46,845 bases of DNA from a virus, in IMG/VR virus record IMGVR_UViG_3300043398_000421, positions 1 through 46,845 of that record, one strand, 5' to 3'. The position numbers and the translations under genes were made by a program. The notes beneath the pieces are model-generated. The model saw nothing but the letters and a program-made list of their open reading frames with translations, was not told the DNA's origin and did not search any database. Positions 9,748 through 39,329 of the stretch are shown piece after piece. Every line of letters starts with the position of its first letter. Positions within the stretch are counted from its first letter, which is position 1.

Positions 9748-9756
9748 GGAGTTGCG

Positions 9757-10161
9757 ATGACAGTAACGGAATTATTGGCGCTTTCCGATTCGGGGACGAT
9801 CGGGATACGCGTTCGATGGGGAACCGGCGAAGAGACGGCGATTTGGGTGGATTCGGCGCTTGCCGCGAACGATGTCATCGCACGGAAGACCCAGGCGAAG
9901 GACACGATCATCGCCGCGCAGGTCGCAGCACGGGCGATTGTCCCGGTTCCGCCATCGGATGCCGATGTTTTGTCGGATGCGTTGTTTGCGGCGGAGCGGC
10001 TCGCGGCCGCCCGAAAGACGCTCGACGAGAGGGGCCTGATCGAGAAGATTGAATTGGACGGCGACCCAGTCGCCGCCACCGTCGCGGATCTTCGGTCCAA
10101 GCTAACCACGGCGAAGGAATCCGCCAAAAACGCCGTAGTGGCGGAAGGCCTGGAGAAGTAG
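9757..10161 (+). CDS. Hypothetical protein, 134 aa, likely structural accessory
   Basis: AAGGAG precedes ATG by 5 nt. The N-terminal half is a mixed alpha/beta domain (TVTELLALSDSGTIGIRVRWG), the C-terminal half is strongly helical and Ala/Lys-rich (LFAAERLAAARKTLDERGLIEKIEL and ATVADLRSKLTTAKESAKNAV), likely coiled-coil. No family recognised. Its place between the adaptor and the fibre suggests a chaperone or assembly role, which is inference from position only. Confidence 0.55.
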   Translation: MTVTELLALSDSGTIGIRVRWGTGEETAIWVDSALAANDVIARKTQAKDTIIAAQVAARAIVPVPPSDADVLSDALFAAERLAAARKTLDERGLIEKIELDGDPVAATVADLRSKLTTAKESAKNAVVAEGLEK

Positions 10162-14929: not shown

Positions 14930-15733
14930 GTGATTGTCCAGGACATCATTGACCTGATCGTCCCGCGGGTACTCGAAAGTAGCTCGAGTTTCCCGTCTGG
15001 ATTCTGGTCCACCGATGAGGTTGTCGGCTACGTGAACAAGGTCCAGCGGGACATGATCCTGAAGATGCAGGCTCTCAAGTCCCTGGGAGCGGTGGCGTCC
15101 AGCGTCGGGGTCCGACTCTACGCCGAACCGGCGGATTCCATGCAGTTGGACCGGATTGCGTTCGCGCAGCAGCCTCTCGTCCAGACGAACCGGTTGTCGC
15201 TGGATCTGGCAAACCCTGCGTGGCGGGGGGATACGGGACGCCCGCAACTCTTCCATCAGGACGAACTGCCGACGAAGACATTCGAGACGGACTACAAGCC
15301 CATCACGGGGATGGCGGGAACCGGGTACACGAACACCGGGAATTACGGAGTGCTTCGGGGAATGTCCGGCGCGTACACGTATACAGCGACGGGAGTTAAT
15401 GGGCCGTTTCGGCGGGCGTATGGGGCGCGGCCGTACCACAGCACAGGGGTGTCCGCCGTCGGGATGCTGCGACGGATGCTCACAGGGACAACGAATTTCG
15501 AGACCGTGCAGACCGTTCTGCCGGAGGCGGTCAGTTCGCCGCAGGACGTGCTCACGGTCCCTGCGTACATGAAGTGGTATCTGGCTTACGGAACCATGCA
15601 GGCCATGCTCAGCAAAGAAGGCGAAGGGCAGGATCTGCGGCGGGCGGCGTACTGCCAGTCGCGGTATCTGCGTGGGATAAACTTGTACCGGCGGCTCGTG
15701 AACGGGGCGCCGATCGGAGGGGGAGCGAAATGA
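14930..15733 (+). CDS. Phage adaptor-like structural protein, 267 aa
   Basis: GTG 14930, 3 bp after the stop of the previous gene; the GGGAGGGG before that stop can serve both. The N-terminus IVQDIIDLIVPRVLESSSSF, then GFWSTDEVVGYVNKVQRDMI, parallels the beginning of 14270 (helix, F-W-S, helix with N), suggesting a second adaptor copy. The middle is Gly/Thr/Tyr-rich beta, and the end has YMKWYLAYGTMQAMLSKEGEGQDLRRA, a helical segment also typical of such proteins. Role: ring protein at the head-tail joint, by analogy. Confidence 0.65.
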   Translation: MIVQDIIDLIVPRVLESSSSFPSGFWSTDEVVGYVNKVQRDMILKMQALKSLGAVASSVGVRLYAEPADSMQLDRIAFAQQPLVQTNRLSLDLANPAWRGDTGRPQLFHQDELPTKTFETDYKPITGMAGTGYTNTGNYGVLRGMSGAYTYTATGVNGPFRRAYGARPYHSTGVSAVGMLRRMLTGTTNFETVQTVLPEAVSSPQDVLTVPAYMKWYLAYGTMQAMLSKEGEGQDLRRAAYCQSRYLRGINLYRRLVNGAPIGGGAK

Positions 15734-15915
15734 GACTCCAGTGTGATGAATGCGGGAAGAGAGTAGATCTTGCGCCCAAGGAATCGTTTCGTAGGCCGGA
15801 AGGTGGTATTAAGCACATGTACCACTGTCCGGGATGCGGCATGCGGTGTATCGGCATCACCCACGATGAATGCGTGTATATGAGCGAGATTATTGAGGGC
15901 TTGACCCGTGGCTGA
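15730..15915 (+). CDS. Zinc ribbon protein, 61 aa
   Basis: ATG 15730 overlaps the upstream stop by 4 bp. The protein is MRLQCDECGKRVDL first, with a second pair HCPGCGMRC; C5, C8, C33, C36 form a C-x2-C...C-x2-C zinc ribbon, with an extra C40. No other domain. It could be a metal-bound nucleic-acid or protein-interaction module. Its position inside the virion cluster is odd for a regulator, so an assembly role is as likely. It overlaps the next gene by 8 bp. Confidence 0.7.
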   Translation: MRLQCDECGKRVDLAPKESFRRPEGGIKHMYHCPGCGMRCIGITHDECVYMSEIIEGLTRG

Positions 15916-19700: not shown

Positions 19701-19886
19701 TCGGTGCAGCAGGGATGGCAGAAGGTAGAGATCAAGTTCCCGCCTAATCTCAAAGGGAAGCTCTTCCGTTTCGTGTTCACATCGGAGACGGCTTTCCGGT
19801 TGTTCCTCAATCAGTCCGATATTGAATGGCATCCGCTGGCCGGAGAGCGGGGCTACCAGCGCGCACGGATCCAGGCGGTGGGCTGA
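16707..19886 (+). CDS. Large tail hub/nozzle-like structural protein (1,059 aa), P22 gp10/T7 gp12-like
   Basis: No Shine-Dalgarno site is apparent before ATG 16707. The N-terminus ([23 protein letters not shown]) and the region around residues 370-420 ([23 protein letters not shown]) recall the beta-propeller/stabilisation proteins that cap the tail of podoviruses. At about 630-760, [21 protein letters not shown] and later [10 protein letters not shown] are blades of that propeller. The C-terminus is a beta-sandwich with [15 protein letters not shown]. It shares its last base with the start of the collagen-like fibre gene (TGATG). The size is larger than T7 gp12 (about 790 aa). Confidence 0.72.
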
Positions 19887-21247
19887 TGCCGGTAATCAGG
19901 CGGCAACAGGGGACGAACGGATACTACCAAGTGCGTCCGCTGGAGCGCTCTCAAGAGATCCAGGAACTGCAAGAGAGCCTGCGGCTCGCCCATGAAGACA
20001 CCAACGCGGCGTTCCGGAAGATCTGCGACCGGCTGGATGAACTCGAGCGGCTGGAATACGTGGACCCCGATCCGAACGTGACGGAAGAGCAACTTCCCGA
20101 AACCCCGCCGATCGGCTGGCTGCAGCAGATCAATTACCTGGGACAAGCGGGGACGTTGAGCGGACTTCGTGGGCCGTCAGGTCCATCGGGGCCGAGCGGT
20201 CCCTCTGGTCCAAGCGGACCTACCGGCCCGACGGGGCCAACTGGTCCTACCGGGCCAACGGGGCCGTCAGGCCCATCGGGGCCGAGTGGTCCCACCGGGA
20301 ATAACTTCTGGACGGAGTACGGCCCGGGCGACGGCATCTACAACAACAACACGAACGGGACCGTTAACATCCTCAGCACGCTGACGGCGGAAGCGCACGT
20401 TCACGCCGGAACTACTGTGCAGATGTCGGGGATTATCGGGCAGAGCCCGGCCGTTACCGTCACGAGATACCTGGGGATCAACGAGGCTGGCGATGTGGGG
20501 TTTACCGGTTCTGGTGGCGGCGCCACAGGACCTACCGGACCGACGGGTCCATCAGGCCCATCGGGGCCTTCAGGCCCAAGCGGGCCGGCGGGAGACGGAT
20601 ATTGGGAGCCGTACGGCGTCGATGACGCCATCGTCAACAACAACGGAGACACGATTTACGTCACCTACGGCGTGAACGTGATTAGTGATGGGCCGGTTCC
20701 GTATTTGACGCTTAGTTCAACCACGGCGGAGAATGCCGCTCAAGCGGTTATTGGGGCATACCTGCCATCGGTCACTCCGGGCGACCCTCCCACTACAACC
20801 TACTGGCGGCTCGGTTCCGGTGAAGACCCTGATGATATTCCGTTTGCTATTCAACTGTCCGACGCCGGGATGGGGCAGTACTTCAACGCGGATGATGCCA
20901 ATATTGAATTTGTTGGTGGCTATATCTATGTAAACGATAGTGGCCAAGGCGTTCGCGTTGTGGTCGATGGCGGGATCGGCACGGAAGACACGGCTGTGAG
21001 GTTTGACCCCGATGTTGTGTTCTACGGTACGGGAGACCCCAGTGGTTTAGGCCAACTCGCCTACCTCATCGGGGACTACGACTCGCTTTCCTATATTAGC
21101 GACGACCCGAATTTCTCTGTTCAGACCACACTGAACCTGACCTATAACGATTTCGGGACTACCGCGCAGGCAGATGTGTGGGCGGTTAAAATCTTCATCA
21201 ACGAGACAAATTACGTCTACGCCTTGACGCTGGGCGGCATATTTTAG
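19886..21247 (+). CDS. Collagen-repeat tail fibre protein (453 aa)
   Basis: ATG 19886 shares its A with the TGA of the preceding gene. Residues about 20-75 form a charged coiled coil ([30 protein letters not shown]). Two blocks of Gly-Pro-Ser/Thr triplets follow, about 95-139 and 213-235, each followed by a beta-rich module with related starts ([15 protein letters not shown] and [15 protein letters not shown]). The C-terminal 200 residues are a globular beta-domain that may contact the receptor. Such coiled-coil plus collagen plus head layouts are known for phage side fibres, where the triplets trimerise. The repeats are DNA-level direct repeats (ggtcc/gggcc-rich), so copy number can vary. 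Confidence 0.82.
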
Positions 21248-24437: not shown

Positions 24438-27400
24438 ATGGCTTCTTTAGTCGAAGACCTCCTTGGCCCCCCGGGCAATGCTTCCAGCCGGGGACCCGTC
24501 GATAGGGCCAGCCGCGCAGAATCAATCCTCGGGCGTTATCCGGCTCTGACGCCGGACCAGCGCCGGCAAATAGTTGACTCCATCCGAAACGCGAACGTTG
24601 ATGTCACGTTCAGGGACATGCTCCGGAATTCCGGCATGGCCAAGCAGGACACAGGCGCGCTATGGGACATGGGCTTGGAGTCTGTCGATGAGAGGCGAGC
24701 CGCTCGCAACCCAACGGCTGTCCCTCCGGCCCCTCAACCGGCCAAGCCAGCGCTCCCGCCAAAGGCCCCGGTGTCGGCGGGATTCACGGACACCCTGAAG
24801 GCGTGGCCTGGTGAATTCCTCAGCCCGAAAGCCGCTGCTGTTGCCCCTGCAGTCCCTAAGTTGCCGCCGAAGCCGAATACGGCGTTAACGATGGGGGCGC
24901 AATCTCCGGTTCCTGACGCTACGCCCGTGCCAGACTCCACGTTGCGGCCCTCTGCGCCGACTGGCGTGCCCCCGAAGTCTTCGTTGCCTCCGCGGCCGTC
25001 GAGCCAGTTCCCCGCCCCGGTGGGCAGTATCGGAGGCGAAATTAAACCGCCAACCGGAATATGGGCTGAGCCGCAGGGGCCGGTAGGGACTGGAGAATTT
25101 GCGCCAAAAATCAAATCGGGCCCATTGGCCCCTACTGAATCCGGCGGGATCATCAGCGGAATGCTGACGCTTGACCCGGTCAGTCTTGCGCCTCCCCCTT
25201 CTGGTCCCGAGATCGCACGAGAAGAACAGCTTTTGATTTCCGAGGGCCGGGCGCTCGCGGCGGAAACCGAAAAATTCAAGTCTATCCGCGATGCCATTGA
25301 GGCGAAGGTTCCCGGGCTGAAGGCGAGGAAAGCGGCACTGGACACGGAATTGGCCGCTATTCAGGCGGAGGTCGGCAATAGAGACACGCGCGCTCGCACA
25401 TCCGTCTCCGTGCTTAACGCGGAGACGGCGGAGATTGAGAGAGAGGATGCCGCGCTTGAGCGAGCAATCAGCGCCTTCAATTCGGCGGCAACGGCCGGAC
25501 AGATGGATGCCGCCCAATTCAGTGCCGCGAAGACCGCGCTCGACCAGCGTATCGCCTCACTTAGAGCACGGGCTGATTCCCACGCTGCCGCAGTTGACGC
25601 ACACAACAGATCCGAGCAGTCCGACCCGTTGATGGCGAGGATTGCCGCATACCAGAAAGCCGAGCGCGATCTCATCGCCGCATTGGACGCGCAGGCGGCG
25701 CCGGGGTTCTCCGCGAACACGGCGGCGCTCCAGGCGAAATGGGCGGACTACGAGAACCGCGCGACGGCCTTCAAAAAGAAGGTGGACCCGAAGCAGCAGG
25801 GCCAGGTCTACAACCCCGGCATAGGCTGGACGCTATTCGGAGAATTGGGGCTTGCCGCTCCGGTCGCCGGCGCCGTCGGCGCGGCCGGCGGAATCGTCCG
25901 CGCCCTCTCCACTGTTGCCGAGGCGGTTATGCCGGAAAGCGCCGAAGCCCGAATGCAGCGTGAAGCATTAAAGGCGATGGAAGGGCTTTCGTTTGACGAG
26001 CGAATGGCCCGGATGGCCTATCTCCGCCAATCGTCCCCGGATCACGTCCTGCTGAAGAAGCCCGACGAACTGCACGTAGACCCGCTCACGGGGATACTGA
26101 AAGAGAGAGCGGGGCTGATGGAGGCGGCCACCGAGCAGTTGCGAGGGGGCGACTTCGGCGGGGGCGGCTTCAATGTTGACCGGTCCAAGCTGACAGGAAC
26201 GGAGTCCGCGGTGCTTTCGGGCCTTGAGTCAATTGGAAGCAATGCTCCCGGACTGGTGGCTGGCGCGATGGCTCAGACACCAAAGCTCGGGGCGGCCATC
26301 GCTTCCACGCTCATGGGACTCTCTACCGGGGGACAAAGCGCCGGAGAAGGACGCAAGGCCGGATTCAGCCCTGGGAAGGCACTCCTCTACGGCGGTATTG
26401 ACGGACTCGTCGAGACTTTCACGGAATACATCCCGTCTCACATCATGATGGATTACTTGGCCAAGAAGAATCCGTCATTCCTTCGGATGCTGTACGAATC
26501 CTCCATCGCTGAGCAGCCGAGCGAAGTAGCCGCTACCGGGCTCCAAGAGTTGAACCGGTGGCTGTTCAACCCCGACCACAACAACGAGTCGTTCAAGGAT
26601 TTCCTCCTGCGGATGCCCGAGGCGGAGCGGCAGACCATAATTGCCACAACAGTCGCCACCGTCGGACAAACGGGGATGATTCACGCGCTGAAGCGGATGG
26701 GCGAGAGTCCGGATGCCGCCAATGATCTGGCCGCCCGAGGCTTGGCGCGAGAGAAAATAGACGAATTTTTGGCCGCAATTAGAGGGTTGCGTTCGTCAGA
26801 TGCGGGCACGCCTCCCGCAACGGAGCCGTCTTCCGCTGGAGTAGTAACGCCCGAGCCGCCGTCGCCCACTCCGTCGCCCGCAACTCCGAGTGTGGCGCTG
26901 CCTCCGTCTCCTCCGCGCATCTTCCAGATCGGCGGGAACCAGGTTGTCGGAACGTTCAGGGACAACGTGGTTTACGCGGACGGCCGCGTGATCTCGATGG
27001 CCCGGCGCCCGTCGTACATGCACGCGTTGCGGCAATACGACATTCCGCAGATGACGCACGAGCAGGTGCAGGCGCTCCAGGAGTCGCAGAAGCCCCCGTT
27101 GCCGCCGGCGCAAGTGTCTGCGCCGAGCGCCCCGCCTCCGATGCCGGTGCGTCCCGATGCAAATTCGTCGCGGCAGGAGTTGCCGCCGAGGCCCGCGGGT
27201 ATCACGGGGCACGTGCATATCCCCTCGATGAACCGGGATGTCCCCGTATCGGAAGTGGCGGGCGTTAGCCGCGGAGTGGAAGACGTGGCAACCATGGGCT
27301 CGAAGGTCATTATGGCCGATGGCGCCACATGGCCCATCTCGCGCAGCGTCCTTGATTCTCTCGTTGCGGCCGGCGCCGCGGACGTTACGCGGGTGCCACC

Positions 27401-30400
27401 TCAATTCGGTTCCTATGAAGAAGCGCAGGCCGCTATTGATCGGTTTGAGGACGCCCTTGACCTGAAATACGTGGATGTCAGGCATCCAGACGGGCGCTCT
27501 GTCTCGGCGTCGCTGATAGCCACCTCTCCCTATGCCAGCCCAATAACTGCGGCAGATACGGCGGAGTTATTGGCCCTATACGAGGCCAGGGATGCCTTCT
27601 CTCGGGAAGAAACAGCGCGCGACGTTACGGACATTGACCGAAGATTCGAGGCGCTTATCCCGGACACGGCCGAACGCGCATCGTTCGTCCGTAGCGTCGC
27701 GCAGGCGGACCTGCCTATATCCATCCGGAATAATAGCGATGTCCGTGGCGTCGGAGGACTAGCCAACATGATCGTCCACCGGCTCAGCGAGCAGTACGGC
27801 GATCATCCTGCCACCGCGTTCACGATTGAATCCAGCAATGAAGGAACTCCGGGTAGTCCCGGTATGCGCCTGCGCCTGATTCACGAACCTGGCCTTGGTC
27901 CATCGCGGCCAGTTCTGAATGAGGCGCAACGCTGGATGAAGCACCTTTATCCAGAGGAGACTCCGATCATCCCCGGCGCAAGGATCGCGCCTGAGACACC
28001 AGGACTCCCTGAGCGGCCGAGCGAGACGACTTTGCCCCCATCTGCGGACGACGCCGGTGTCATTATCGGGGCCCCCGCTCCGGATACCGGAGAGTTCGAG
28101 GTAAAGGCCCGGGGCGAGACACAGGCCGAAGCGCACGCCGTTGCCATGGAGGCACTCAGGAAGTCCGGGAAAGACCCTGATCGGTATTCCATGGATCCTG
28201 CGGTCTGGAAGAAGGGGGCGGTGCGCCCATCCCGGGGGGGCGTGGAGATTGACGCGAACCCTGAATATACGTTCACCTTCACACCGATTCCCCCCCCCGT
28301 CACCGCCGAAGACATAAAGAGGATACCTGCGGATATCGAGGCAACTGGTCTCAAGAATCTGGAAGAGCGATCCGACGAAGAAATAGCGGAGGCGATGGAT
28401 GACGCCGAGGCCTTGTCGCGGGCGCAGGCGCTGGGCTACGCGAGAAAACTGCTCAAAGATGGGGTTGGGGTCGTCCCGAAAACGCTGGCCGAGAGTTACG
28501 GGATCACCCTGGCAGCGGCTTCCGAAGTAATCGCCGAGGCGCGCAAAGAGGCGGGGCTACCGAAGGCAGGCGCAGTGCCGGACGCACCAAAGGCTTCCCC
28601 GCAGGATACTCCCGGATATCGTATCGAGCCGCTCCCAGACGGCCGCTTCGACATCATCCGCCCTAACGGCAAGCGCTCCTCGATGGGGCCTTTCGCAAGT
28701 AAAGAAGAGGCTGCGGCTGAAATGGCCGTCATGGAAGAGGCCAATCCGCAGAAGGCTCCGGCGCCGTTGAAGTCCCCTGCGGTTAAATCGTCGAAAGCGC
28801 CGGCACCGCCGGCGAAAGCGAAGACTCCCGCGATTAAGCCGTTGCCTCCACAGCCATCGGCCCAGTTGAGCGACGCGGATGCGATGAGGGAAGGTATCGC
28901 GAGCGGGAAGCTCTCCGCGGAAGACGAGGACGCGCTGTCGGTAGACTTCTCGTCCCCCCCCCGCGGAGAGGGCGCCGGCGACATGATGGGCGGCTTCCCA
29001 GTCGTCCCCACGCCGGAGCGGCCGTTCATTACGAAGCGCACTCCGCACGGGCCGAGAGTTTGGGCAGACGCGGCGGCGATAGAACTCATTATCGAGTACG
29101 CGAAGCCGGAAGAAAGAGACGCTGGAAGCAAAACTTCCGCGCTGACGGTCCGGAACGTTGACCCCGGTGCCGTTCAGTGGATGTCGGAGGAAATGGCCGA
29201 AGCGCAGCGTTTCGGCGACGAAGAGCGCGTAAGGCGGCTGGCGGGCCTGCGCGATGTCTTCGCCGAAGCGGTCGCTGACGGTAGAAGCCAAGTCGCGATC
29301 GTCCCGATGAACTCGAACGCCGCCAACATAGGCGGCCCCATGAGTTCGCGCCTTGGGCTAGGCAGGCAACGCGCCGCTCAGCTTGCCAGGCACGAGATGG
29401 TCCACCAAGTTCTCGGTGGAATCCTTAACGGCGCGGATTATACCGCATTGGACGAAGTCCCCGCGATTCGCTCTGGATACCCTGGCCTTGCGAAAAAGGC
29501 CGATGGCTACTACAGGGCGGTCCACGGGACGACGCGCCGCAATCTCGTCACGCGCGTCGAAGAGATATTCACGCATATCCTCGCTGGTCAGGAGCGCGAG
29601 ATCAGGCTGACCGAAGACCAAGCCGTTGCGATAATCTCCGATGCATGGGATAAGCTAAAGGCAATCAAGGGGGGCGCGGCTGCGGCAAAGGTTTTCCGAG
29701 TCGGCAACCCCCGTATTACGGGAAAGGTAGGCGGGTATGTCAAAGAGGTATTTGGACGTGGAGGTCCACAGTCCGTTGGAGACAGCATTCATGGTGCTGG
29801 AAGAGGGGGGCAAGGAGGCGTTGAGGGACTACCTCCGAAGCCTGAAGGAACCGGCGGACTCGACATCGACAGAAGTGAGTCTCCCCCCGAAACCGGAGAC
29901 AAACGGCTAAGCACTCTTGCGCCGGGAGTGCGCACTCCGGTGATCAAGACCGCCGGCGTCATTTACCGGAATACGGAATCCCGGGATGAATGGGCAGCGC
30001 AGATGCTCGCCAAGATCGGCGAGAAGGTGCGCCCCTATCTGAATAGCCTTTACGACTTGGCCGAGGATGTGGCCGAAACTCACGGGTTGCCGCAGCATCG
30101 GCAACAGGAGGTGACGGATGTACGCACTGGAATCGCTGGAAAACCTGGCGAAGCGGCACATAGTGGACTACCAGCCGCTTCTGGCCAAGCGGCTGGAGGC
30201 GAAGGGAATGCTGGAGAAGACAGCCAATCGTCGGGCGAAGTTCGCGCTGGAAACCTACCAGGCCAACCAGAAGCGGTTGCCGGCGGGGGGAGCGGAGGAG
30301 TTGATGTACGAGGTACTGTATCCGATCCCGGACGAAAGGGAAGTTCAGGAGTCGGAGCGCCTCGCACAACAAACGACGGCTTCTACCGAATAACGGAAGC

Positions 30401-33400
30401 CGACCATCTGGGGGAAGGCGGTCCCCGTGAAAAGCTGGTTCGAAACCTCACGGCCATCCGGACGCTGAAATCTCTCGATTCCGAAGGGCGACTCCCGACA
30501 CCTGCTGAAAAGCGTATTCTTGCTGGATACGTCGGATGGGGAAGCCTCGCGCAGGCTGTCTTCTCGGAGAAAAACGCCAAGCTCCCGGAACGGCTTGAAC
30601 TCGAGCGGCTCCTCACGCCGGAAGAACTGGACGCCGCGCGTAAGTCCACGATGAATGCGCACTACACCTCTCCACAGGTGATCAACTTCATGTGGCAGAT
30701 GGCGGGAAGGCTGGGCTTCAGCGGAGGCACCATCCTTGAGCCAGGCATGGGAACGGGCAATTTCTTCGGTCTCGCCCCGGCTTCGGTTCTGCCAAACAGC
30801 ACATTCCTCGGCGTTGAACTGGACCAGATTACAGGGAAGATCGCGCAGTATCTTTACCCGGGCGCGCAGATCATGGTCCGTGGATACGAGACGGTAGTCA
30901 TGCCTGACGGCGCCGTCGATTTGGCGATCGGTAACGTTCCGTTCGGTAATTACAAGCTGTCCGATCCCCGCTACCGGTCCCAGAACCTGTCCATCCACGA
31001 CTACTACTTCGTGAAGACGTTGGACAAGGCGCGCCCCGGCGGCATTGTAATGTTCATCACGAGCCGTTTCACCATGGATAAGATGAGCCCGCGGGTGCGC
31101 GACGCCATGGCTTCCCGCGGCAACCTTGTTGCGGCGTACCGGCTTCCGAATACGGCCTTTAGGCAGAACGCCGGCACCGAAGTCACCACGGATATCATCA
31201 TCCTGCAGAAGCGGCAACCCCAGACGCCGCAGTCTGGCGAAGCGTTTTCGAGTGTGACGGAAATCGCCCCGGGACTCGCCATCAACGAGTACTTCGCCAG
31301 GCATCCGGAGAATATGTTCGGGCGAATGGCGTTGACGGGCAAGATGTACGGGAAGCGGGAAGAGGGCGAGCCTACGCTTGAACCGACGGAGCCGCTGGAC
31401 ACGATGATGGCGAACGCCATGCGCCGGGCTCCGCGCAATGTGATTGACGCGATTCAATCCGCCCCTCCGATGATTGCCGCCGCGGCCCCAGGAGATGTCA
31501 GGGAGTTGGCGTATACCGTTCAGGATGGCAGGCTGCTTCAGCGCGTTGACGGGGCGCTCGTTGCGCCATTGGACAAGAAGCTCGAGACGGAGCCCTACTT
31601 ATCCCAGATGCGGGACTTAGTTCAGATCAGAGACCAGGTCCAGTCGCTGATTACGCTGCAGCGAACCGTGGACGACGACGCCATGCTTGCGGGGCCACAG
31701 GGCCTCCTGAACGAAACGTACGATGCGTACGTGAAGAAGTACGATTACCTGAACGGGCGCCGGAGCCGGATATTTGAGGACGATCCGCAGTACCCGCTCT
31801 TGCTGTCTCTCGAGAACGTCAATCCTGAAGACAAGTCCGTGACCAAGGCGGACATCTTCACAAAGCGGACGATCCCGGCGAGCATGCCGCTGACGGCCGT
31901 ATCTTCCGATATGGCCGAGGCGCTCAGCCAAGTTATCGCAGAGCGGGGCTTCCCGGATCTCGAGTTTCTCGCATCATTGGCGCACCGGCCCGTGGAAGAA
32001 GTCACGGCGGAACTCGTGGACAAGGAACTCGTATTCCTTGACCCGTCTACCGGCAAGTACGACGCCGCATCAACCTATCTGTCTGGGCGCGTGAGAGAGA
32101 AATTGGCCGTAGCGAAGGCCGCAGCGCAGCAGGATAGCGCGTATCAGCCCAACGTAGCCGCGCTGGAAAAGGTCCAGCCTGAAGATAGGCTGCCGCAGGA
32201 AATTTCGTATTCTCTCGGCGAATCGTGGATCCCGGAAGATGCCTACAAGCAATTCATTGCAGAGCGTCTCATGGGGGCAGAGCCTGGCGGAGAAGCCCCT
32301 TACGAAGTCACGGTCTCGAAATTGCCGAATAGTTGGCTTGTGAAGTTTCCGGCGACGGGGGCTCAGCAGTTGGAGTGGAGCGTCCCACAGATCCGCTTGT
32401 CGGAATTGGTCGAGATCGGGATGGACCTGAAGAGACCGACGATATGGATTAAGCATTCTGACGGGTCGAGGTCCATTGATCAGCAGCAGACGATTATCGC
32501 GAGAGAAAAGCTGCTTCAGATTCGGAACGCATTCGAAGAATGGGCGCGCACGTCTCCAGTATGGAGCGGCCGTCTGGCGCGGCTATTCAACGAGACGTAC
32601 AACGCGACAAGGCTTCCGTCTTTTGATGGGTCCCACATGCCGCTCCACGGGATATCCAAGGAGGTTACTCCGTATCCGCATCAGAAAGACTTTGCGTGGC
32701 GGGTGGTGATGGAGCGTCGAGCCATCGCCGCGCACGAGGTTGGGACGGGTAAAACGATCTCCACGATTATCTCCGCCATGGAACTCAAGCGCATGGGCAT
32801 CGCCAAGAAGCCGATGATTGTGTCTCCGAATGGCAGGGTGCGTCAGTGGGCATCGGAGTTCGCGCGGACTTACCCGGGAGCGAATGTCTTGATCATTGGG
32901 CCTGAAGACTTGGCCGGCCCACGTCGGCGCCTGATGTCCGCGAGGATTGCGACGGGCAATTGGGACGCGGTAATCATGCAGCACAGTTCATTCGGGCTAC
33001 TGCCGATGTCTCCGCAGTATGTCGCGAATACCATCCGTGAAGAAATCGCGCAATTGAGGGACGCGATCAAATCGGCGCAAGAATCTGAAGCGGCGGCCGG
33101 CGGCGGGAAGAGTAGCCGGACAGTGAAGCAACTCGAGAAGTCAGCGGCGGCGATGGAAACGAAGCTGCGCGAGCTTCTGGAGAAGCCGAAAGATAACACG
33201 ATCAAGTTCGACGAACTTGGCGTTGACTTCATTTTCGTGGATGAAGCGCACCTCTTCAAGGGACTCCCGGCATACACGAAGCTGGGGAATGTCTCCGGCC
33301 TCGGTGGTCGCAAGGGATCAGGTCGTGCAGCCGACATGAAGACCAAGATTGATTTCGTGCGATCGCGCCGGGAAGACGGTGGCGGGGTGGTATTCATGAC

Positions 33401-36400
33401 AGGAACCCCGATCACGAATTCCACCGTAGAAATCTACACGATGACGCGGTTCGTGGCGCCGGATGTTCTCCGTGACCTGGGGATTAACTCTTTCGATGAC
33501 TGGGCCGCTCATTTCGGGAACGTGGTTGACGTACTCGAGATGTCCCATGACGCCCGGAGTTATAGGCCGAAGACAAAGTTCAGGCTGATCGTTTCGACCA
33601 GCAAGGAACTCAGCGACATGTTCAGGATCTTTACGGACCTGAAGTACGCGGATGAATTGGGCATCAAGCGGCCGAGGGTTTACGGCGGAGGCCCCGAAGC
33701 CATCATCGTTCCGAGCAATGGCGTAACGGAGCCGTTAATCCAAGACATCGTTGAGCGTATTGACGATCTCCGGCGTAACCCTACGAAGCAATTCGAGAAG
33801 GGGGCCGACAACCATCTCAAGCTCAATACCGAGGGACGTCTCGTCGCGCTGGACCCACGGCTACTGAATCCCTCGTTGCCGGACCACCCTGAGTCGAAAA
33901 CCAACATCGCAGTCTCCAGAATATTCAAGGTATGGGAGCGAAACAAAGAGAAGCGGCTGACACAGTTAGTGTTTTCGCAGGGATACCGGCTGGTGAACCA
34001 CGCGACCAAGCAGGAAATCTTCAACCTCTATGAGGACATGAAGAAAAAGCTGATGGCGAAGGGAGTCCCGGCCAGCGATATCGCTTTTGCGTCGGACTAT
34101 GCGGGCAATGAATCGCAGGAACTGTACGACGCAGTGAACGCCGGCGATATCCGGATCGTCTTCGGGACGACAGAGAAGATTGGCGTTGGCGCTAACCTGC
34201 AGCGGCTGATGCTCTATCTCCATAACCTGGACCCGACATACAGACCTGATCAGCTTGCCCAGCGCATCGGCCGAATTCTGCGGCAGGGGAACCAGAACGA
34301 AGAGATCCACATCCTGAATTACGGACTGGAAGGCAGCCTGGACGCGTACATCTACCAAATGATGGAGTCCAAGGAGCGCGAGATCAGGCTGTTGCTCTCA
34401 AAGGGAGAAATGCCTTCCGACGGGGACCCTTTCGGGGAATTCGTCGTTCAACTCGGGCAGATGAAGGCCCTGATTTCCGGGAACACGGACATCATCCGCC
34501 AGATGGAACTCCAGGCGGACATCATGAAGGTCGAAGCGGTCCGTCGCGACAAGGCTTCGCGAGTGAATGCGCTGCGGTTCGAGGAATCCAAGATTCAGGC
34601 CAATCTTGAAAGCCTGCACAAGCAGATACCTATCGTGTCTCAGGTAATCGCTGGATACGACGAGTACAAGGCTGCGGTGAAGAAGGCTGACGATCCAGCC
34701 AACTTTTTCAAGGCCCAAGTGGGCGGCCGGGAGTTTGGGGCCCGCGGGGAGTTGGTCAAATTCATCGAGGCGGCGCCGGAGGAAGCATTCGGAAGTCCTG
34801 CGCTTCTATTCGGCATTCCTGTGAGGTTTGACCAGGTCGGGAAATGGCGAGGCGGTGACGCACAAAGCGTCGGCGAACTGAAGCACTCTCCACATGATGC
34901 GGCGTTCAGCGTATCCGATTTCGGGCGCATATCGGAGTACAGCAACGCGCTGAAGGCGGTTAACGAGATTGCTGACAAAATAAGGTCCGGCGAGTTATCC
35001 GGCCCACAGGAAGTCGTGTTACCGGACGGACGCAAGGTGACCATTGAGCGTGTCCAAGCCTATCGCTACCACCTTGCGAACGAATGGCACGATGTCCCGC
35101 AGACGGCTTCTGGATTCCTGACAAGCATTGTCACCCAACTGAATAACGCCCTCCCGAAAGAAGCGGAGAAACTAGACCGGGAGCTTGAAGGCAAAAACAA
35201 GGAGTTGGAGGACGTCCATTCTCAGCAGGCATCGCTCAACGATCAGGCGGAGAATGTCAAGCTCGCGTCCATGCAGCGCGAGCTGTCCGAGATCATGGAT
35301 AGGCTGAATCCGAGGGGCAGGCCGGAAGATGCGGTGATTGATCCCGACGCCGTTGAGGCGTCCGACGAAGAAGGTGAAGACGAAGAGGCACCGGCGGCAA
35401 AGCCGAAGCCCTCTCTCAAGATTGACCGCAACGAAGACTCGTTCACGCCGTCCCCGTTGCCGCAGCCACCTCCGCCGTTCGGCCAAGACAGGAAGTACGC
35501 GATCCTTCGCGCTGGCACAGGCAGTGAAGAGATGGATAACCGCGGCGCACAGATGGAAGAGGCCGCGGCGCTCCGCGCGAGCATAGACGCCGCATACGAA
35601 AGCGGCAATACGGCCGAGGCGGAGCGGCTGGAGCAGCGGCTTGGCGCGATCGAGGAGGGGCTCGAGCCTGAGTCTGACTTAGAGATTGACGCTGTGATGG
35701 ACGGGGTATCGAGTGAGGAGCAGTTGGCTGGCCTCTACGCCCGACTCGGCCATCCCGGCGCCGACCGTCCACAGATTGCGGCCCAAATGCGGGCCGTTAT
35801 TGAGGATGGGGCGAACAACGAGTCCGGTTTCGTCGGGAGCCCTTATGCTCCATCGGCCCCACGCACGGACCTGACCGACGCCGAGATCATGGATGCGGCA
35901 AAGGATGCTTACGAAAGCCGGCGCGCCATCCACGGGAAATTGAAGAAGGCTCCAGGAGGGGCGTTACAGCGGGCGAAGGAATGGATTGCATCGAGAGGGG
36001 GGCCGCAGGGGCCACCGCCACCGCTGGGCTCGCGGCCACGAGAAGGAGAGCGTGGCTCGTTCTCCATGAAGCCGCGGCCAAAGACGGACGCGGAAGTCGC
36101 CCTCGAGAAGGCCGACGAGATCAAGGAGAAGAACCCGCTGATCGGACAGATTCTCGGGGCGACGGCGGGGCAATCCAAGCCGTCCATCATGGAGCGAATC
36201 CGGGCATCGATGGATCGTCACGCCAAGGATTGGGTCTGGGAGTACTCGACGTCCAAGTTCCCGCAGGTCCAGGAGTGGCTGGCGCGAATCATCGACATCG
36301 TTCCGAACGCTATGAAGCAGGCGACTGCGTCGGTCGATCAGATCCTCGGCCCCGAAGTGGCCCGGGAAGACTCTGAATTGGCGCGGCAGATCATCGTCCT

Positions 36401-39329
36401 TGAAGACGCGATCGAAACGGCGATGCGCCTTGGCCCCGACAAGTTGCCGAACCACTACCTCGGACTGACGGTGGACAATGTGCAGGACTACCTGGACGAG
36501 ATCCAGAAACTGGCGACGCCGGAAGCGAAGGCGATCGTGGAGCGGTTCCACGTCACGATGGAAGCGTCTTTCGGCGACCTCGTCCAGCGCGGGAAGCTGG
36601 ACGAGGCATCAAAGAAGCAGAAGTATTTCCCTAACGTTGTCCTGGACTACCTGAATACGCTTGATCAAGATGCCTATGTTTCCGCCGTCCTTCATACGCC
36701 CGGCGGCCTCCAGGGGATGCAGGACCCGCCGGAAGCTCCCGGCCTGAAAGAAAAAGAACACACGTTGCGTACGAGCGTTCCATCGCGCCTTAAGGAACCA
36801 TTCCGCGGATATACGCTAGAGCGGAAGGGGCACGGCGAAAAGTTCCATTCCGCTGATGTATGGGATGTGACATGGCGATATTTGACCAAGCTGAACGCGG
36901 ATAACCACGTAGACGATCTGAAGGATAGCGCCATTAAGCAGTTCGAGAATACGACGCTGGATCCCGCGAGCGGCCGGATGCGAAAGCTATCTGGGGCGGA
37001 ACGGGCAGCCATACTCGCATCCACCGGAGGCCGAGTTAAGCCGGACGCCACGTATTCGGATCAATCAGGAAACCGGTACTACGGATACCAGGTTAAGCCC
37101 GGAAGCCGCATGTACCGGGCGATGGTCACGAGGGAGGCTAATTGGGAAGCTGCCGTCATCGCCGGGCTAACCGCGGCAGAGCTTGAACAAATCGGCACTG
37201 CGGCGGAGGGCTTGGCGGTTGGCCGCAAGAATCCGGCGGTGCTTCTCCCCATGGAACTCGCGAAGCGGCTGATCAGTTTTCATGAGAGGCCAGATATCGG
37301 CGAGATCGTCAAATGGGCCGTTCGTGCAACATCGAAGTGGAAGGCGATCACCCTCACGAATGCCGGACTGACATACCAGACGAATAATTTACTCGGCGAT
37401 TCGCTTCACGCGCTGTCGTGGGAGCCCGCGACGGTGCTCAAGATGTACCCGGCGCTGAAACTGCTGTGGAAGGACCGGATGCGCACGGCTGACTCCATTC
37501 TCGCCAAGCTGACACGGGCCTCCCTGAAACGCATGGGGATAGCCGACATTGAGTTGACCAACGCCGAAAAGGACATGATCAAGATGATGGAAGACGCCAA
37601 AGTGTTACACGCGTCGGCGACTTCATTCTTTGACCAGTTCGGCGGCAATGCAAGGCTGGACGATTCCGAGATCTACCGGCGCACGATGAAGACTGGATGG
37701 GAGAAGACGAAGCTGCAGGGCAAGAAGGTTCTGGCGGACCTCTGGAATCACATGGGGATGCGGACGATCGGCGAATACCGCGAAGCGTTGCCGCGTGTGG
37801 CAATGTGGATGGCGATGAACGATCACATGGAGAAGAGCCGGGCATCGTTCCGGAAGAAGTTTGTCGCCGACTACAAGAGAGCCAACAAGGGCATCCCCCC
37901 GGGTGCCAAGATCGTCCGAAAGGCGGAATCGTCGAAAAACTTCCTGCGGCCATGGCAAAAAACATTCGGGCTGACCAATGAGCAGGCGAGAGACGCCGCC
38001 CCTCGCGACATCTTAATCAATTATTCGAAGAAGACGTGGCGGTTCTCAACGTATATAAGCGGATTGGCGCTTCCGTTCGCCACGTACAACCTGAAAATCG
38101 TGGGCTCGGTTCTCCGGCAGGCGAAGAGTCCGTACTTCTGGGCTATTCAGGGCGGCTTGCTGACGGCGGCGTGGCTTTGGAACAACATGTACTACCCCGA
38201 TGATGAGCGCGACGCGCCCGAATGGATGAAGTACAAGTTGCATGTGTGGCTGCCAGCGAATGATGTTGACCCGAAAACCGGGAGAACGACCAGGAAAGCG
38301 CTCGTTGGTAACTGGCTGCCGCTCAATATCGCGGGTACGTGGGTGGGGCTCGACAAGTGGTCTTCGTACCTTGGTGAGATATACAGGGGCGATTCCGATA
38401 CGAAGAAAATCGCCGGGAACGTCATCGAGGACTGGACCGGCTACAACCCCGTATCGGGGACAGGTATCGTGGCCGTAAATAGCGCATGGGCCAAGACCGC
38501 GGCCGCGATGGTCGGCCCTCTCGTTGCCGCGTTTGAAGGGCTTGTCTATAACCGCAGGGGCGCGACCGGCCGCCCGGTTGTCCCGGAAAGGCTGAAAAAC
38601 ACTCCACGCGGGGACGCGATGGCATATTCGTATGTCATAGAGAGGATGTTGGCCCCGGTGACGCAGGGGGTGACGGCCTATGAGGCCGTAATGCAAGAAG
38701 CGCCGGAAGAAGATGAAGACCTCGACGATGTGAGCAACCCGCTGGCTCACGCAACCGCAGGCGCAAAGTGGGGGTCTTCGATTCTGGGTGCATACCTATT
38801 CGACCGTGGCCCACTGGACCCATGGAAGGCTATCGGTGGTCACGAGATCGATGTTCAGCGTGAGCGGCAGGCGAAATGGCGGAATGAATTGCGTGCTCAG
38901 GAGAACATGCATAACGCCAAGCTACTGGACATCCAAGACCTATATGTCAAATTTGAAGGCGGACGCCAATACACCGAAGAGCAGTTTTCCGGGGAAATGG
39001 AGAAGATCCAAGAAGGGGACGGCCCATACGTCCCAACGCAGACGGTGTGGCGCCTACTGCGATCGCCGCAGACGCGAATCCGCGTGGCGCAGGCGCAATT
39101 TCGCGGGACGAGTGACCCCGAGAAGAAGCGCCAACTCTCGGAAACCATAAACGCCCTGGACAACCAGATATTGGCCGAGTCCCGCAAGGGCGCCCCGAGG
39201 GCCGTACGCCCGGAGTTGCCGCCGATACCTTTTTCGGATACTGCGGCGCCGTCCGGGGTGCCGCCGGGCTCCTATTCGGCTCCGCGCGGGTTCCCGCCAA
39301 GGCCGCCGAGTTTTCAGCCGCAGCCGTAA
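24438..39329 (+). CDS. Giant polyvalent protein (4,963 aa): zincin, N6-adenine methyltransferase, SF2 helicase, large C-terminal domain (DarB-like)
   Basis: An uninterrupted frame of 14.9 kb. Layout, approximate residues: 1-85 helical head; 85-260 Pro-rich linker; 260-455 coiled coil; about 460-490 and 590-760 hydrophobic Gly/Ala segments that may enter membranes; 1652-1656 HEMVH (zincin metal-binding motif HExxH); 1986 onward DarB-type region starting RITEADHLGEGGPREK; methyltransferase motif I LEPGMGTGNFFG at 2100-2111 and motif IV variant NVPFG at 2166-2170; helicase Walker A GTGKT at 2769-2773 (K2772), DEAH at 2935-2938, motif VI QRIGRILRQG with R3276; 3300-3700 coiled coil and acidic linker; about 3730-4963 C-terminal polyvalent domain with WKAITLTNAGLTYQTNNLL near 4301 and a hydrophobic helix near 4563-4585. 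Probably packaged and ejected with DNA to block restriction. Confidence 0.85.
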   Translation: MASLVEDLLGPPGNASSRGPVDRASRAESILGRYPALTPDQRRQIVDSIRNANVDVTFRDMLRNSGMAKQDTGALWDMGLESVDERRAARNPTAVPPAPQPAKPALPPKAPVSAGFTDTLKAWPGEFLSPKAAAVAPAVPKLPPKPNTALTMGAQSPVPDATPVPDSTLRPSAPTGVPPKSSLPPRPSSQFPAPVGSIGGEIKPPTGIWAEPQGPVGTGEFAPKIKSGPLAPTESGGIISGMLTLDPVSLAPPPSGPEIAREEQLLISEGRALAAETEKFKSIRDAIEAKVPGLKARKAALDTELAAIQAEVGNRDTRARTSVSVLNAETAEIEREDAALERAISAFNSAATAGQMDAAQFSAAKTALDQRIASLRARADSHAAAVDAHNRSEQSDPLMARIAAYQKAERDLIAALDAQAAPGFSANTAALQAKWADYENRATAFKKKVDPKQQGQVYNPGIGWTLFGELGLAAPVAGAVGAAGGIVRALSTVAEAVMPESAEARMQREALKAMEGLSFDERMARMAYLRQSSPDHVLLKKPDELHVDPLTGILKERAGLMEAATEQLRGGDFGGGGFNVDRSKLTGTESAVLSGLESIGSNAPGLVAGAMAQTPKLGAAIASTLMGLSTGGQSAGEGRKAGFSPGKALLYGGIDGLVETFTEYIPSHIMMDYLAKKNPSFLRMLYESSIAEQPSEVAATGLQELNRWLFNPDHNNESFKDFLLRMPEAERQTIIATTVATVGQTGMIHALKRMGESPDAANDLAARGLAREKIDEFLAAIRGLRSSDAGTPPATEPSSAGVVTPEPPSPTPSPATPSVALPPSPPRIFQIGGNQVVGTFRDNVVYADGRVISMARRPSYMHALRQYDIPQMTHEQVQALQESQKPPLPPAQVSAPSAPPPMPVRPDANSSRQELPPRPAGITGHVHIPSMNRDVPVSEVAGVSRGVEDVATMGSKVIMADGATWPISRSVLDSLVAAGAADVTRVPPQFGSYEEAQAAIDRFEDALDLKYVDVRHPDGRSVSASLIATSPYASPITAADTAELLALYEARDAFSREETARDVTDIDRRFEALIPDTAERASFVRSVAQADLPISIRNNSDVRGVGGLANMIVHRLSEQYGDHPATAFTIESSNEGTPGSPGMRLRLIHEPGLGPSRPVLNEAQRWMKHLYPEETPIIPGARIAPETPGLPERPSETTLPPSADDAGVIIGAPAPDTGEFEVKARGETQAEAHAVAMEALRKSGKDPDRYSMDPAVWKKGAVRPSRGGVEIDANPEYTFTFTPIPPPVTAEDIKRIPADIEATGLKNLEERSDEEIAEAMDDAEALSRAQALGYARKLLKDGVGVVPKTLAESYGITLAAASEVIAEARKEAGLPKAGAVPDAPKASPQDTPGYRIEPLPDGRFDIIRPNGKRSSMGPFASKEEAAAEMAVMEEANPQKAPAPLKSPAVKSSKAPAPPAKAKTPAIKPLPPQPSAQLSDADAMREGIASGKLSAEDEDALSVDFSSPPRGEGAGDMMGGFPVVPTPERPFITKRTPHGPRVWADAAAIELIIEYAKPEERDAGSKTSALTVRNVDPGAVQWMSEEMAEAQRFGDEERVRRLAGLRDVFAEAVADGRSQVAIVPMNSNAANIGGPMSSRLGLGRQRAAQLARHEMVHQVLGGILNGADYTALDEVPAIRSGYPGLAKKADGYYRAVHGTTRRNLVTRVEEIFTHILAGQEREIRLTEDQAVAIISDAWDKLKAIKGGAAAAKVFRVGNPRITGKVGGYVKEVFGRGGPQSVGDSIHGAGRGGQGGVEGLPPKPEGTGGLDIDRSESPPETGDKRLSTLAPGVRTPVIKTAGVIYRNTESRDEWAAQMLAKIGEKVRPYLNSLYDLAEDVAETHGLPQHRQQEVTDVRTGIAGKPGEAAHSGLPAASGQAAGGEGNAGEDSQSSGEVRAGNLPGQPEAVAGGGSGGVDVRGTVSDPGRKGSSGVGAPRTTNDGFYRITEADHLGEGGPREKLVRNLTAIRTLKSLDSEGRLPTPAEKRILAGYVGWGSLAQAVFSEKNAKLPERLELERLLTPEELDAARKSTMNAHYTSPQVINFMWQMAGRLGFSGGTILEPGMGTGNFFGLAPASVLPNSTFLGVELDQITGKIAQYLYPGAQIMVRGYETVVMPDGAVDLAIGNVPFGNYKLSDPRYRSQNLSIHDYYFVKTLDKARPGGIVMFITSRFTMDKMSPRVRDAMASRGNLVAAYRLPNTAFRQNAGTEVTTDIIILQKRQPQTPQSGEAFSSVTEIAPGLAINEYFARHPENMFGRMALTGKMYGKREEGEPTLEPTEPLDTMMANAMRRAPRNVIDAIQSAPPMIAAAAPGDVRELAYTVQDGRLLQRVDGALVAPLDKKLETEPYLSQMRDLVQIRDQVQSLITLQRTVDDDAMLAGPQGLLNETYDAYVKKYDYLNGRRSRIFEDDPQYPLLLSLENVNPEDKSVTKADIFTKRTIPASMPLTAVSSDMAEALSQVIAERGFPDLEFLASLAHRPVEEVTAELVDKELVFLDPSTGKYDAASTYLSGRVREKLAVAKAAAQQDSAYQPNVAALEKVQPEDRLPQEISYSLGESWIPEDAYKQFIAERLMGAEPGGEAPYEVTVSKLPNSWLVKFPATGAQQLEWSVPQIRLSELVEIGMDLKRPTIWIKHSDGSRSIDQQQTIIAREKLLQIRNAFEEWARTSPVWSGRLARLFNETYNATRLPSFDGSHMPLHGISKEVTPYPHQKDFAWRVVMERRAIAAHEVGTGKTISTIISAMELKRMGIAKKPMIVSPNGRVRQWASEFARTYPGANVLIIGPEDLAGPRRRLMSARIATGNWDAVIMQHSSFGLLPMSPQYVANTIREEIAQLRDAIKSAQESEAAAGGGKSSRTVKQLEKSAAAMETKLRELLEKPKDNTIKFDELGVDFIFVDEAHLFKGLPAYTKLGNVSGLGGRKGSGRAADMKTKIDFVRSRREDGGGVVFMTGTPITNSTVEIYTMTRFVAPDVLRDLGINSFDDWAAHFGNVVDVLEMSHDARSYRPKTKFRLIVSTSKELSDMFRIFTDLKYADELGIKRPRVYGGGPEAIIVPSNGVTEPLIQDIVERIDDLRRNPTKQFEKGADNHLKLNTEGRLVALDPRLLNPSLPDHPESKTNIAVSRIFKVWERNKEKRLTQLVFSQGYRLVNHATKQEIFNLYEDMKKKLMAKGVPASDIAFASDYAGNESQELYDAVNAGDIRIVFGTTEKIGVGANLQRLMLYLHNLDPTYRPDQLAQRIGRILRQGNQNEEIHILNYGLEGSLDAYIYQMMESKEREIRLLLSKGEMPSDGDPFGEFVVQLGQMKALISGNTDIIRQMELQADIMKVEAVRRDKASRVNALRFEESKIQANLESLHKQIPIVSQVIAGYDEYKAAVKKADDPANFFKAQVGGREFGARGELVKFIEAAPEEAFGSPALLFGIPVRFDQVGKWRGGDAQSVGELKHSPHDAAFSVSDFGRISEYSNALKAVNEIADKIRSGELSGPQEVVLPDGRKVTIERVQAYRYHLANEWHDVPQTASGFLTSIVTQLNNALPKEAEKLDRELEGKNKELEDVHSQQASLNDQAENVKLASMQRELSEIMDRLNPRGRPEDAVIDPDAVEASDEEGEDEEAPAAKPKPSLKIDRNEDSFTPSPLPQPPPPFGQDRKYAILRAGTGSEEMDNRGAQMEEAAALRASIDAAYESGNTAEAERLEQRLGAIEEGLEPESDLEIDAVMDGVSSEEQLAGLYARLGHPGADRPQIAAQMRAVIEDGANNESGFVGSPYAPSAPRTDLTDAEIMDAAKDAYESRRAIHGKLKKAPGGALQRAKEWIASRGGPQGPPPPLGSRPREGERGSFSMKPRPKTDAEVALEKADEIKEKNPLIGQILGATAGQSKPSIMERIRASMDRHAKDWVWEYSTSKFPQVQEWLARIIDIVPNAMKQATASVDQILGPEVAREDSELARQIIVLEDAIETAMRLGPDKLPNHYLGLTVDNVQDYLDEIQKLATPEAKAIVERFHVTMEASFGDLVQRGKLDEASKKQKYFPNVVLDYLNTLDQDAYVSAVLHTPGGLQGMQDPPEAPGLKEKEHTLRTSVPSRLKEPFRGYTLERKGHGEKFHSADVWDVTWRYLTKLNADNHVDDLKDSAIKQFENTTLDPASGRMRKLSGAERAAILASTGGRVKPDATYSDQSGNRYYGYQVKPGSRMYRAMVTREANWEAAVIAGLTAAELEQIGTAAEGLAVGRKNPAVLLPMELAKRLISFHERPDIGEIVKWAVRATSKWKAITLTNAGLTYQTNNLLGDSLHALSWEPATVLKMYPALKLLWKDRMRTADSILAKLTRASLKRMGIADIELTNAEKDMIKMMEDAKVLHASATSFFDQFGGNARLDDSEIYRRTMKTGWEKTKLQGKKVLADLWNHMGMRTIGEYREALPRVAMWMAMNDHMEKSRASFRKKFVADYKRANKGIPPGAKIVRKAESSKNFLRPWQKTFGLTNEQARDAAPRDILINYSKKTWRFSTYISGLALPFATYNLKIVGSVLRQAKSPYFWAIQGGLLTAAWLWNNMYYPDDERDAPEWMKYKLHVWLPANDVDPKTGRTTRKALVGNWLPLNIAGTWVGLDKWSSYLGEIYRGDSDTKKIAGNVIEDWTGYNPVSGTGIVAVNSAWAKTAAAMVGPLVAAFEGLVYNRRGATGRPVVPERLKNTPRGDAMAYSYVIERMLAPVTQGVTAYEAVMQEAPEEDEDLDDVSNPLAHATAGAKWGSSILGAYLFDRGPLDPWKAIGGHEIDVQRERQAKWRNELRAQENMHNAKLLDIQDLYVKFEGGRQYTEEQFSGEMEKIQEGDGPYVPTQTVWRLLRSPQTRIRVAQAQFRGTSDPEKKRQLSETINALDNQILAESRKGAPRAVRPELPPIPFSDTAAPSGVPPGSYSAPRGFPPRPPSFQPQP
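29737..29910 (+). CDS. Possible overprinted small ORF inside the giant gene (57 aa)
   Basis: In another frame than the giant gene, ATG 29737 to TAA 29908-29910 encodes a protein-like sequence with two plausible helices: D-V-E-V-H-S-P-L-E-T-A-F-M-V-L-E, then K-E-A-L-R-D-Y-L-R-S-L-K. Over the same bases the giant frame reads Gly/Arg/Ser-rich low complexity, as if out of frame. An upstream AGG-rich stretch (AAGGTAGGCGGG) ends one base before the ATG, so the ribosome site is weak. It may be a relic of an ancestral gene order. Confidence 0.3.
   Translation: MSKRYLDVEVHSPLETAFMVLEEGGKEALRDYLRSLKEPADSTSTEVSLPPKPETNG
30118..30393 (+). CDS. Overprinted small ORF inside the giant gene (91 aa)
   Basis: ATG 30118 is preceded by AGGAGGTGA at 30106-30114, about as good a Shine-Dalgarno site as any in the window, at proper spacing. 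The product is helical and looks protein-like: A-L-E-S-L-E-N-L-A-K-R-H, then L-A-K-R-L-E-A-K-G-M-L-E-K-T-A-N-R-R-A-K-F, then E-E-L-M-Y-E-V-L-Y-P-I-P-D-E. The giant frame over the same DNA (about residues 1895-1983) is Gly/Ser/Ala-rich low complexity. It ends just where the DarB-type region begins in the giant frame (RITEADHLGEGG). No family recognised. Either a genuine nested gene or a fossil of fused genes. Confidence 0.5.
   Translation: MYALESLENLAKRHIVDYQPLLAKRLEAKGMLEKTANRRAKFALETYQANQKRLPAGGAEELMYEVLYPIPDEREVQESERLAQQTTASTE

Follow-up and report, generated by a model that had tools for sequence, protein, structure and literature searches.

Few well-supported cases of long nested genes on the same strand are known in prokaryotes, and most occur only among close relatives. 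Rz and Rz1 are phage lysis proteins of more similar size than the pair considered here. Phage genes embedded in the manner of Rz1 within Rz, a class mentioned in PMC9144972, resemble our locus in that a small gene lies wholly inside another, but the host gene of our locus runs to thousands of codons and the overlapped stretch appears to code for a linker. The antirestriction-related ardD inside tniA of Tn5053 also overlaps a mobile-element gene; it sits (PMC3533173) on the complementary strand of one transposon gene, whereas the overlap described here is same-strand, in frame +1 and found in many elements.

The host gene belongs with the DarB-like large polyvalent proteins (LPPs) covered by Iyer et al. 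2017 (PMC5512222), with which it shares methyltransferase (MTase)-like and SNF2-type helicase regions. One DarB-like protein, gp69 of Burkholderia phage JC1, is reported in virions by proteomics, with 51 unique peptides and 15.61% coverage (PMC9144972); BcepIL02, a relative of JC1, carries the nested ORF (L176:6603–6977). Within the searchable text of Iyer et al. 2017, "TnpV", "overlap", "out of frame" and "low complexity" return zero hits each, and the one mention of "reading frame" and two of "nested" concern other things. A literature search, with most subscription journals outside it, returned no description of a gene nested in LPP or DarB-like genes.

Two families of small proteins are the closest comparisons for the nested product. 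TnpV (PF14198), like the nested family, comprises small proteins on mobile elements; unlike it, some annotated TnpV genes stand alone, after a serine recombinase or before an LPP gene. DUF1896 (PF08989; structure 2apl) is, like the nested gene, a small gene tied to an LPP MTase gene, in four of five Bacteroidota loci, and may share its fold, but it lies directly upstream of the LPP gene and not within it, and its sequence similarity is not significant.

A giant LPP gene and two ORFs in its +1 frame

The window, by which we mean the whole stretch of 46,845 nucleotides analysed, is one virus record of IMG/VR (IMGVR_UViG_3300043398_000421). Its giant gene (24438–39329, plus strand) encodes a DarB-like/PLxRFG LPP of 4963 aa that matches phrog_10089 (DarB-like antirestriction, E = 0, best stretch residues 1891–3637) and phrog_11801 (E = 1.9e-174) among PHROGs and carries an SNF2 domain (PF00176, E = 3.3e-9), so that an N6-MTase-like region and an SNF2-type helicase are found in the same protein that houses the nested ORFs. 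The N6-MTase-like domain (30402–31799, plus strand) was matched by 104 phage records, at 36–43% identity among the 30 best listed. Upstream of the giant gene, at 19826–21247, lies a gene with long collagen-like repeats.

A first-pass annotation had placed two protein-like ORFs out of frame within the giant gene. Both are present at the positions given, on the plus strand and in frame +1 of the giant ORF: a 57-aa ORF at 29737–29910 and a 91-aa ORF at 30118–30393, with its TAA stop at 30391–30393 and its end 9 nt before the MTase match. Under a codon model trained on the window's own genes, usage switches exactly over 30118–30393 (nested frame +0.30, giant frame −0.27) and, more weakly, over 29737–29910 (+0.02 and −0.26), in agreement with the annotation's description of the alternate frame as the protein-like one. 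Sliding segments of the same length as the 91-aa ORF gave, across the whole giant gene, a mean of +0.21 for the giant frame (SD 0.13, lowest −0.25) and of −0.48 for the +1 frame (SD 0.17, highest +0.28), extremes that the 91-aa ORF exceeds in both frames, and the largest excess of +1 over the giant frame was found in segments starting at 30018–30288. The giant frame looks natural between and after the ORFs, as had been noted, scoring +0.24 over 29911–30117 and +0.23 over 30394–30700. The first of these intervals (29911–30117, plus strand) holds a giant-frame mini-domain with EWAAQMLAKIGEKVRPYLNSLYDLAED; motifs of this type were seen in 14 of the 71 viral loci inspected, counting the window, and precede the nested gene in 13 phage LPP loci besides it.

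Recurrence of the nested gene across LPP loci

Relatives of the locus were collected through the methylase-like domain at 30402–31799, directly after the nested ORF. A single-sequence search of viral contigs with this domain gave no relatives and an alignment-based scan found them. The resulting 164 LPP loci are the window, three phage records, the 80 best of 313 confirmed loci in IMG/VR and the 80 best of at least 586 in GTDB species genomes. In most of the viral loci a codon scan returned a +1-frame ORF of roughly 80–180 aa ahead of the MTase domain, and the encoded proteins are alike (W..h.P..y..L...G.L......a........L...G....eA.e..re..l..P.e). A profile was built from these nested proteins without the window and run on all six frames of all loci; many of the viral matches are themselves members of the profile, while the genomic loci and several viral ones (L030, L043, L082, L083) are not.

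A relative of the 91-aa protein was found nested in the LPP ORF at 139 of 164 loci, window included (77/84 viral, 62/80 genomic), and all 141 nested matches are in frame +1, with none in frame and none in +2. Collapsing at 95% identity leaves the match in 58 of 63 viral representatives and 54 of 71 genomic ones. Among the 25 loci lacking it, 12 run off the contig, four have a giant ORF broken by a stop or shift and nine are unexplained. The four with a broken ORF were matched only outside the giant ORF: in L096, L140 and L157 the small gene is nested in a fragment of the giant frame upstream of the break, and in L129 the giant frame has a stop inside the small gene. P1 darB (L178) and the LPPs of a mycobacterial plasmid (L179) and a Gluconobacter plasmid (L181) gave no match to the nested profile. 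One nested protein matched 21 phage records, and under none of these matches is a nested gene listed separately.

The window's own protein is recognised by the profile with E = 3.2e-4 among 20,751 ORFs; it is also the single match among the 669 ORFs of the window (E = 9e-5), and its 17.9 bits compare with 12.0 for the best of 2000 shuffles. A direct search of viral contigs and phages with the 91-aa sequence gave no relative, and it matched no Pfam or PHROG family; weak Pfam matches of the window's small proteins to AbiEi_3, RNA_helicase_helical and Retrotrans_gag, far below cut-offs, were dropped. Specifically, it has no match to TnpV (PF14198) above the gathering score, which its relatives L041 and L016 reach. 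In hhalign comparisons the phage-group profile aligned weakly both with the window protein (probability 10%, E 0.003) and with TnpV (37%, E 3.6e-4). We read the window protein, on these comparisons, as a divergent member of the family.

Recurrence bears directly on the suggestion, also made at first pass, that a continuous ancestral domain only looks out of frame because of compensating indels in the assembly. Two errors would indeed produce a +1 excursion followed by a return to frame, and in one record, that of phage PBC5 (L086, AF448724), a one-base difference puts the upstream half of the LPP in frame with the nested protein. Yet the same excursion occurs in 138 other LPP loci from phages and bacterial genomes, isolate genomes among them, and each ORF brings its own start, its own stop and often a Shine-Dalgarno (SD) sequence. 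The probability left to assembly error is, in our judgement, negligible.

Probable signals for initiation inside the giant gene

Six nucleotides before the ATG at 30118 stands AGGAGG (30106–30111, plus strand), the correctly spaced SD sequence that had been ascribed to the second ORF. A TGA at 30112–30114 (plus strand) completes AGGAGGTGA and also closes the nested frame 3 nt ahead of its ATG, so that SD and stop interlock as AGGAGGTGAcggATG and the stop-to-stop ORF starts at 30115. In the family, an SD match of at least 5 bases precedes 86 of 127 nested starts, as against 15.1% of 2246 control regions treated alike, the start being chosen in members and controls as that with the best SD within the allowed range. 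Counting back from the chosen start, 59 of 127 members have a nested-frame stop within 30 nt and 88 have one within 60 nt. SD and stop of the window together point to independent initiation at the nested ATG.

The same stops weigh on programmed ribosomal frameshifting, by which the upstream half of the LPP would be fused to the helical domain to give a short LPP with a TnpV-like C terminus. Such a product is suggested by phrog_938, a 2185-position profile named endolysin that carries the nested protein C-terminally, as does PBC5 orf33; the one-base difference in PBC5 may explain why this "endolysin" ends in the nested protein. Because the nested frame of the window is closed by a TGA 3 nt before its ATG, a ribosome in the giant frame has no room to shift into the nested ORF, and the upstream stops of the other members leave little. 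We consider frameshifting very improbable, if a shade less so than assembly error, and reject both explanations.

Selection on the nested frame and retention of the giant frame

Selection was examined on relatives since the window member has no close relative among the loci collected: 151 pairs of loci, the window not among them, that differ by 4–30% of nucleotides over the nested gene. In 150 of the 151 pairs the nested frame shows the higher amino acid identity of the two. For 38 pairs sharing no locus, identity exceeds the permutation expectation in the nested frame in all 38 and in the giant frame in nine; purifying selection thus acts on the nested frame in relatives of the window ORF. 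One way for the nested genes to fail would have been stops in the alternate frame along with a conserved giant frame, and the relatives present the opposite, with the alternate frame as the conserved one. As nested-frame conservation exceeds that of the giant frame, the structured, conserved product is expected to be the nested one, and the giant frame over these bases appears mainly to have to stay open.

At fourfold sites the nested gene shows 308 differences among 1213 and the flanking giant domain 2142 among 5475, the latter total including 6 sites from one of the 38 pairs (L003–L164) for which the flank coordinate was misplaced; an earlier pair set agrees. Fewer fourfold differences in the nested gene are what double coding predicts. 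Resampling of synonymous codons in the nested genes gave 5.1 expected giant-frame stops per gene with a mean probability of 0.028 for none (3.2 stops and 0.01 for the window's gene), a figure that is partly selected because an open giant frame was a criterion for calling a match nested. A less biased form of this evidence is that, of 143 loci with a small gene in the region, only L129 has a giant-frame stop within it.

Relation to TnpV and DUF1896

Pfam TnpV (PF14198) was matched by 26 of 50 nested proteins at E ≤ 0.01, the best at 2.6e-44, and the nested ORF of a gut element (L003) matches at E = 3.2e-39. Comparison of profiles by hhalign joined the proteobacterial-phage group to the Bacillota-like group (E 5.7e-14) and the latter to TnpV (E 4.6e-8). 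Judged from these alignments, the nested family grades into TnpV, with the link running through the Bacillota group.

AlphaFold2 models of the window protein (pLDDT 92.4) and of a second member, L041 (pLDDT 87.0), are both all-helical. Their best solved structure is in both cases 2apl (PG0816 of Porphyromonas gingivalis), with Z 7.7 and 2.4 Å over 63 residues for the window and Z 6.8 and 2.6 Å over 66 for L041, the next structures standing at 4.4 and 4.5; helical proteins may attain scores such as these by chance. When solved structures were searched by sequence with the nested alignment, designed helical repeats and chance matches came back. The 2apl protein belongs with DUF1896 (PF08989), matching its alignment at E 1.1e-26.

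We sought DUF1896 in 119 genomes of one order, which holds the Paludibacteraceae MAG of one of our loci (L113), and found it in five. The DUF1896 gene lies directly upstream of the LPP methylase gene in four of five Bacteroidota loci, its stop overlapping the LPP start or ending within a few bases of it. Comparison of profiles showed no significant similarity between DUF1896 and the nested family (E 0.89 and 0.029, with probabilities below 2%), and DUF1896 was not among the families matched by the 50 nested proteins. Because fold and place agree, we regard DUF1896 as a candidate un-nested counterpart of the nested gene.

The 57-aa ORF and other occupants of LPP genes

Other nested ORFs were sought in the 164 LPP genes, taking those of at least 45 aa without overlap to the TnpV-like family. 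Among 2736 such ORFs, 26 score above zero and 15 above 15, and 15 of the 16 that exceed 10 are in frame +1; ORFs overlapping the TnpV-like family score above zero in 118 of 147 cases. These counts address the idea that GC-rich codon usage by chance leaves long, functionless +1 ORFs. Simulated giant-frame stops over all members are indeed fewer in the +1 than in the +2 arrangement (5.1 against 6.9), so +1 ORFs are easier to keep, but the gap between 26/2736 and 118/147, together with protein conservation across phyla in the nested frame, makes chance next to impossible as an account of the 91-aa ORF.

The 57-aa ORF of the window, with a score of 15.5, ranks 13th of the 2736 and is a probable second nested gene. 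Its ribosome-binding site is poor; its product matched no Pfam or PHROG family, and nothing resembling it was present among the 40 best other nested ORFs listed from LPP loci. A chance origin is for this ORF perhaps a genuine minority possibility. The proposal of nested genes with their own translation thus fares unequally: recurrence, SD and selection argue strongly for the 91-aa ORF, and the codon score argues moderately for the 57-aa ORF.

Several other nested ORFs were seen. One LPP gene (L014:13071–13724) contains in frame +1 a 217-aa ORF with a DUF559 match (E 2.8e-12), which its name suggests to be endonuclease-like and which is possibly a selfish endonuclease housed in a giant-gene linker. 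A second nested +1 family, of 58–76 aa with ...PFDTLQ.W..., occurs in six phage LPP loci at about 15660–15900 (L061:15660–15845, L058:15681–15857, L069:15672–15902, L063, L067 and L071). Two TnpV-like ORFs, both matched by the profile, are nested in tandem in one giant gene (L045:9231–9497 and 9537–9869), and a nested +1 ORF at L012:4263–4463 matches the small phage family phrog_16759 (E 4.6e-5).

Un-nested states and a proposed origin of the overlap

Among the plasmid loci L171, L172, L174 and L180, only that of Acaryochloris (L174) is truly separate: its TnpV gene precedes the LPP gene in another frame and the giant frame is closed. Burkholderia and Pseudomonas plasmids have the small gene annotated and the LPP annotated as starting after it, and their giant frame is open from before the small gene, with alike short N-terminal peptides that bear QLxF-type motifs. 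We had considered L171, L172 and L180 as stand-alone small genes; as their giant frame is open from before the small gene, they are counted as nested with a short N terminus (outside the 164), and their records seem to start the LPP too late. QLDLF/QLSFDF-like motifs in short giant-frame N termini (L171:6536, L172:6539, L180:5536, L127:9611, L153:8651) are reminiscent of the sliding-clamp-binding motif.

Plasmid annotations of this kind, and the low complexity of the giant-frame sequence over the nested gene, would fit a real nested gene whose surrounding giant frame is not read through, the LPP being separate upstream and downstream proteins and the openness incidental. Against this, about five giant-frame stops per gene would be expected, fourfold divergence is reduced in the nested gene, the giant frame of those same plasmids is open before the small gene with similar short peptides at its start, and in 118 of the 125 cases where the 5′ end is closed the giant frame begins 300 nt or more ahead of the nested core. 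We hold this alternative to be improbable, although it is the least remote of those that concern the 91-aa gene.

Some TnpV genes lie away from any LPP and immediately follow a serine recombinase. The TnpV start on a Campylobacter coli plasmid overlaps the end of a gene of the serine-type recombinase family by 4 nt (L169:2597–2941); the recombinase is another possible coupled partner for the TnpV family.

Distances between nested proteins correlate with those between MTase domains (Mantel r = 0.80, n = 61 viral loci, 0/2000 permutations), and the nested gene and the LPP have therefore largely been inherited together. They are probably an old pair of once neighbouring genes. The most likely, and simplest, origin is that a small gene stood directly before a methylase-helicase gene, that the giant frame then grew N-terminally through the small gene, and that further upstream domains were later added to the LPP, a direction that we infer. 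The first-pass alternative of an overlap surviving from neighbouring genes thus persists as a plausible origin, given the small gene before the LPP on the Acaryochloris plasmid and DUF1896 before it in Bacteroidota, with the order of events as its conjectural part.

Proposed reading and implications

The 91-aa ORF is, with high probability, a real and separately translated +1 nested gene for an all-helical TnpV-like protein, over which the giant frame reads the same bases as linker. It belongs to a TnpV-like family of small helical proteins whose genes are nested within LPP genes in phages, plasmids and integrated elements. Recurrence, frame, ribosome-binding-site enrichment, nested-frame selection and giant-frame retention are all read from sequence, and from them we infer translation of the nested ORF. 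Ribosomes in the giant frame would translate the nested bases into a flexible, Gly/Ala/Ser-rich linker that joins a small upstream domain to the methylase, and other ribosomes would initiate at the internal AGGAGG–ATG and make the small helical protein. One stretch of DNA thus appears to encode both a folded protein and the flexible tether of a giant one.

Since the small gene is found within the LPP gene or, in most un-nested cases, just ahead of it, and the two are inherited together, we tentatively propose that the small gene's product is a partner of the LPP, a chaperone or adaptor for LPP folding, loading or DNA engagement, a role to which we give somewhat less than an even chance. Alternatives are a regulator or an independent host-takeover protein.

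A wider reading, which we find evenly poised, is that LPP linkers are habitual +1 housings for small genes, the obligatory TnpV-like partner being the main occupant and others sitting in other linkers, such as the DUF559 endonuclease, the second family of six loci and the 57-aa ORF of the window. So read, the nested pair would be old enough to be shared by phages and mobile elements from Bacillota, Pseudomonadota, Verrucomicrobiota and Bacteroidota. If this holds, injected giants would carry accessory genes inside their own coding sequence, and the sequence of the giant's tether would be dictated by the small gene.

The nested gene recurs with the same partner gene, in the same frame and across phyla, in loci recorded as one giant gene, and it constitutes a large natural resource for studying how double coding is maintained. 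The arrangement also offers a functional neighbour for TnpV and DUF1896. Many DarB-like loci would, by implication, hide an unannotated protein that can be searched for in existing virion proteomes.
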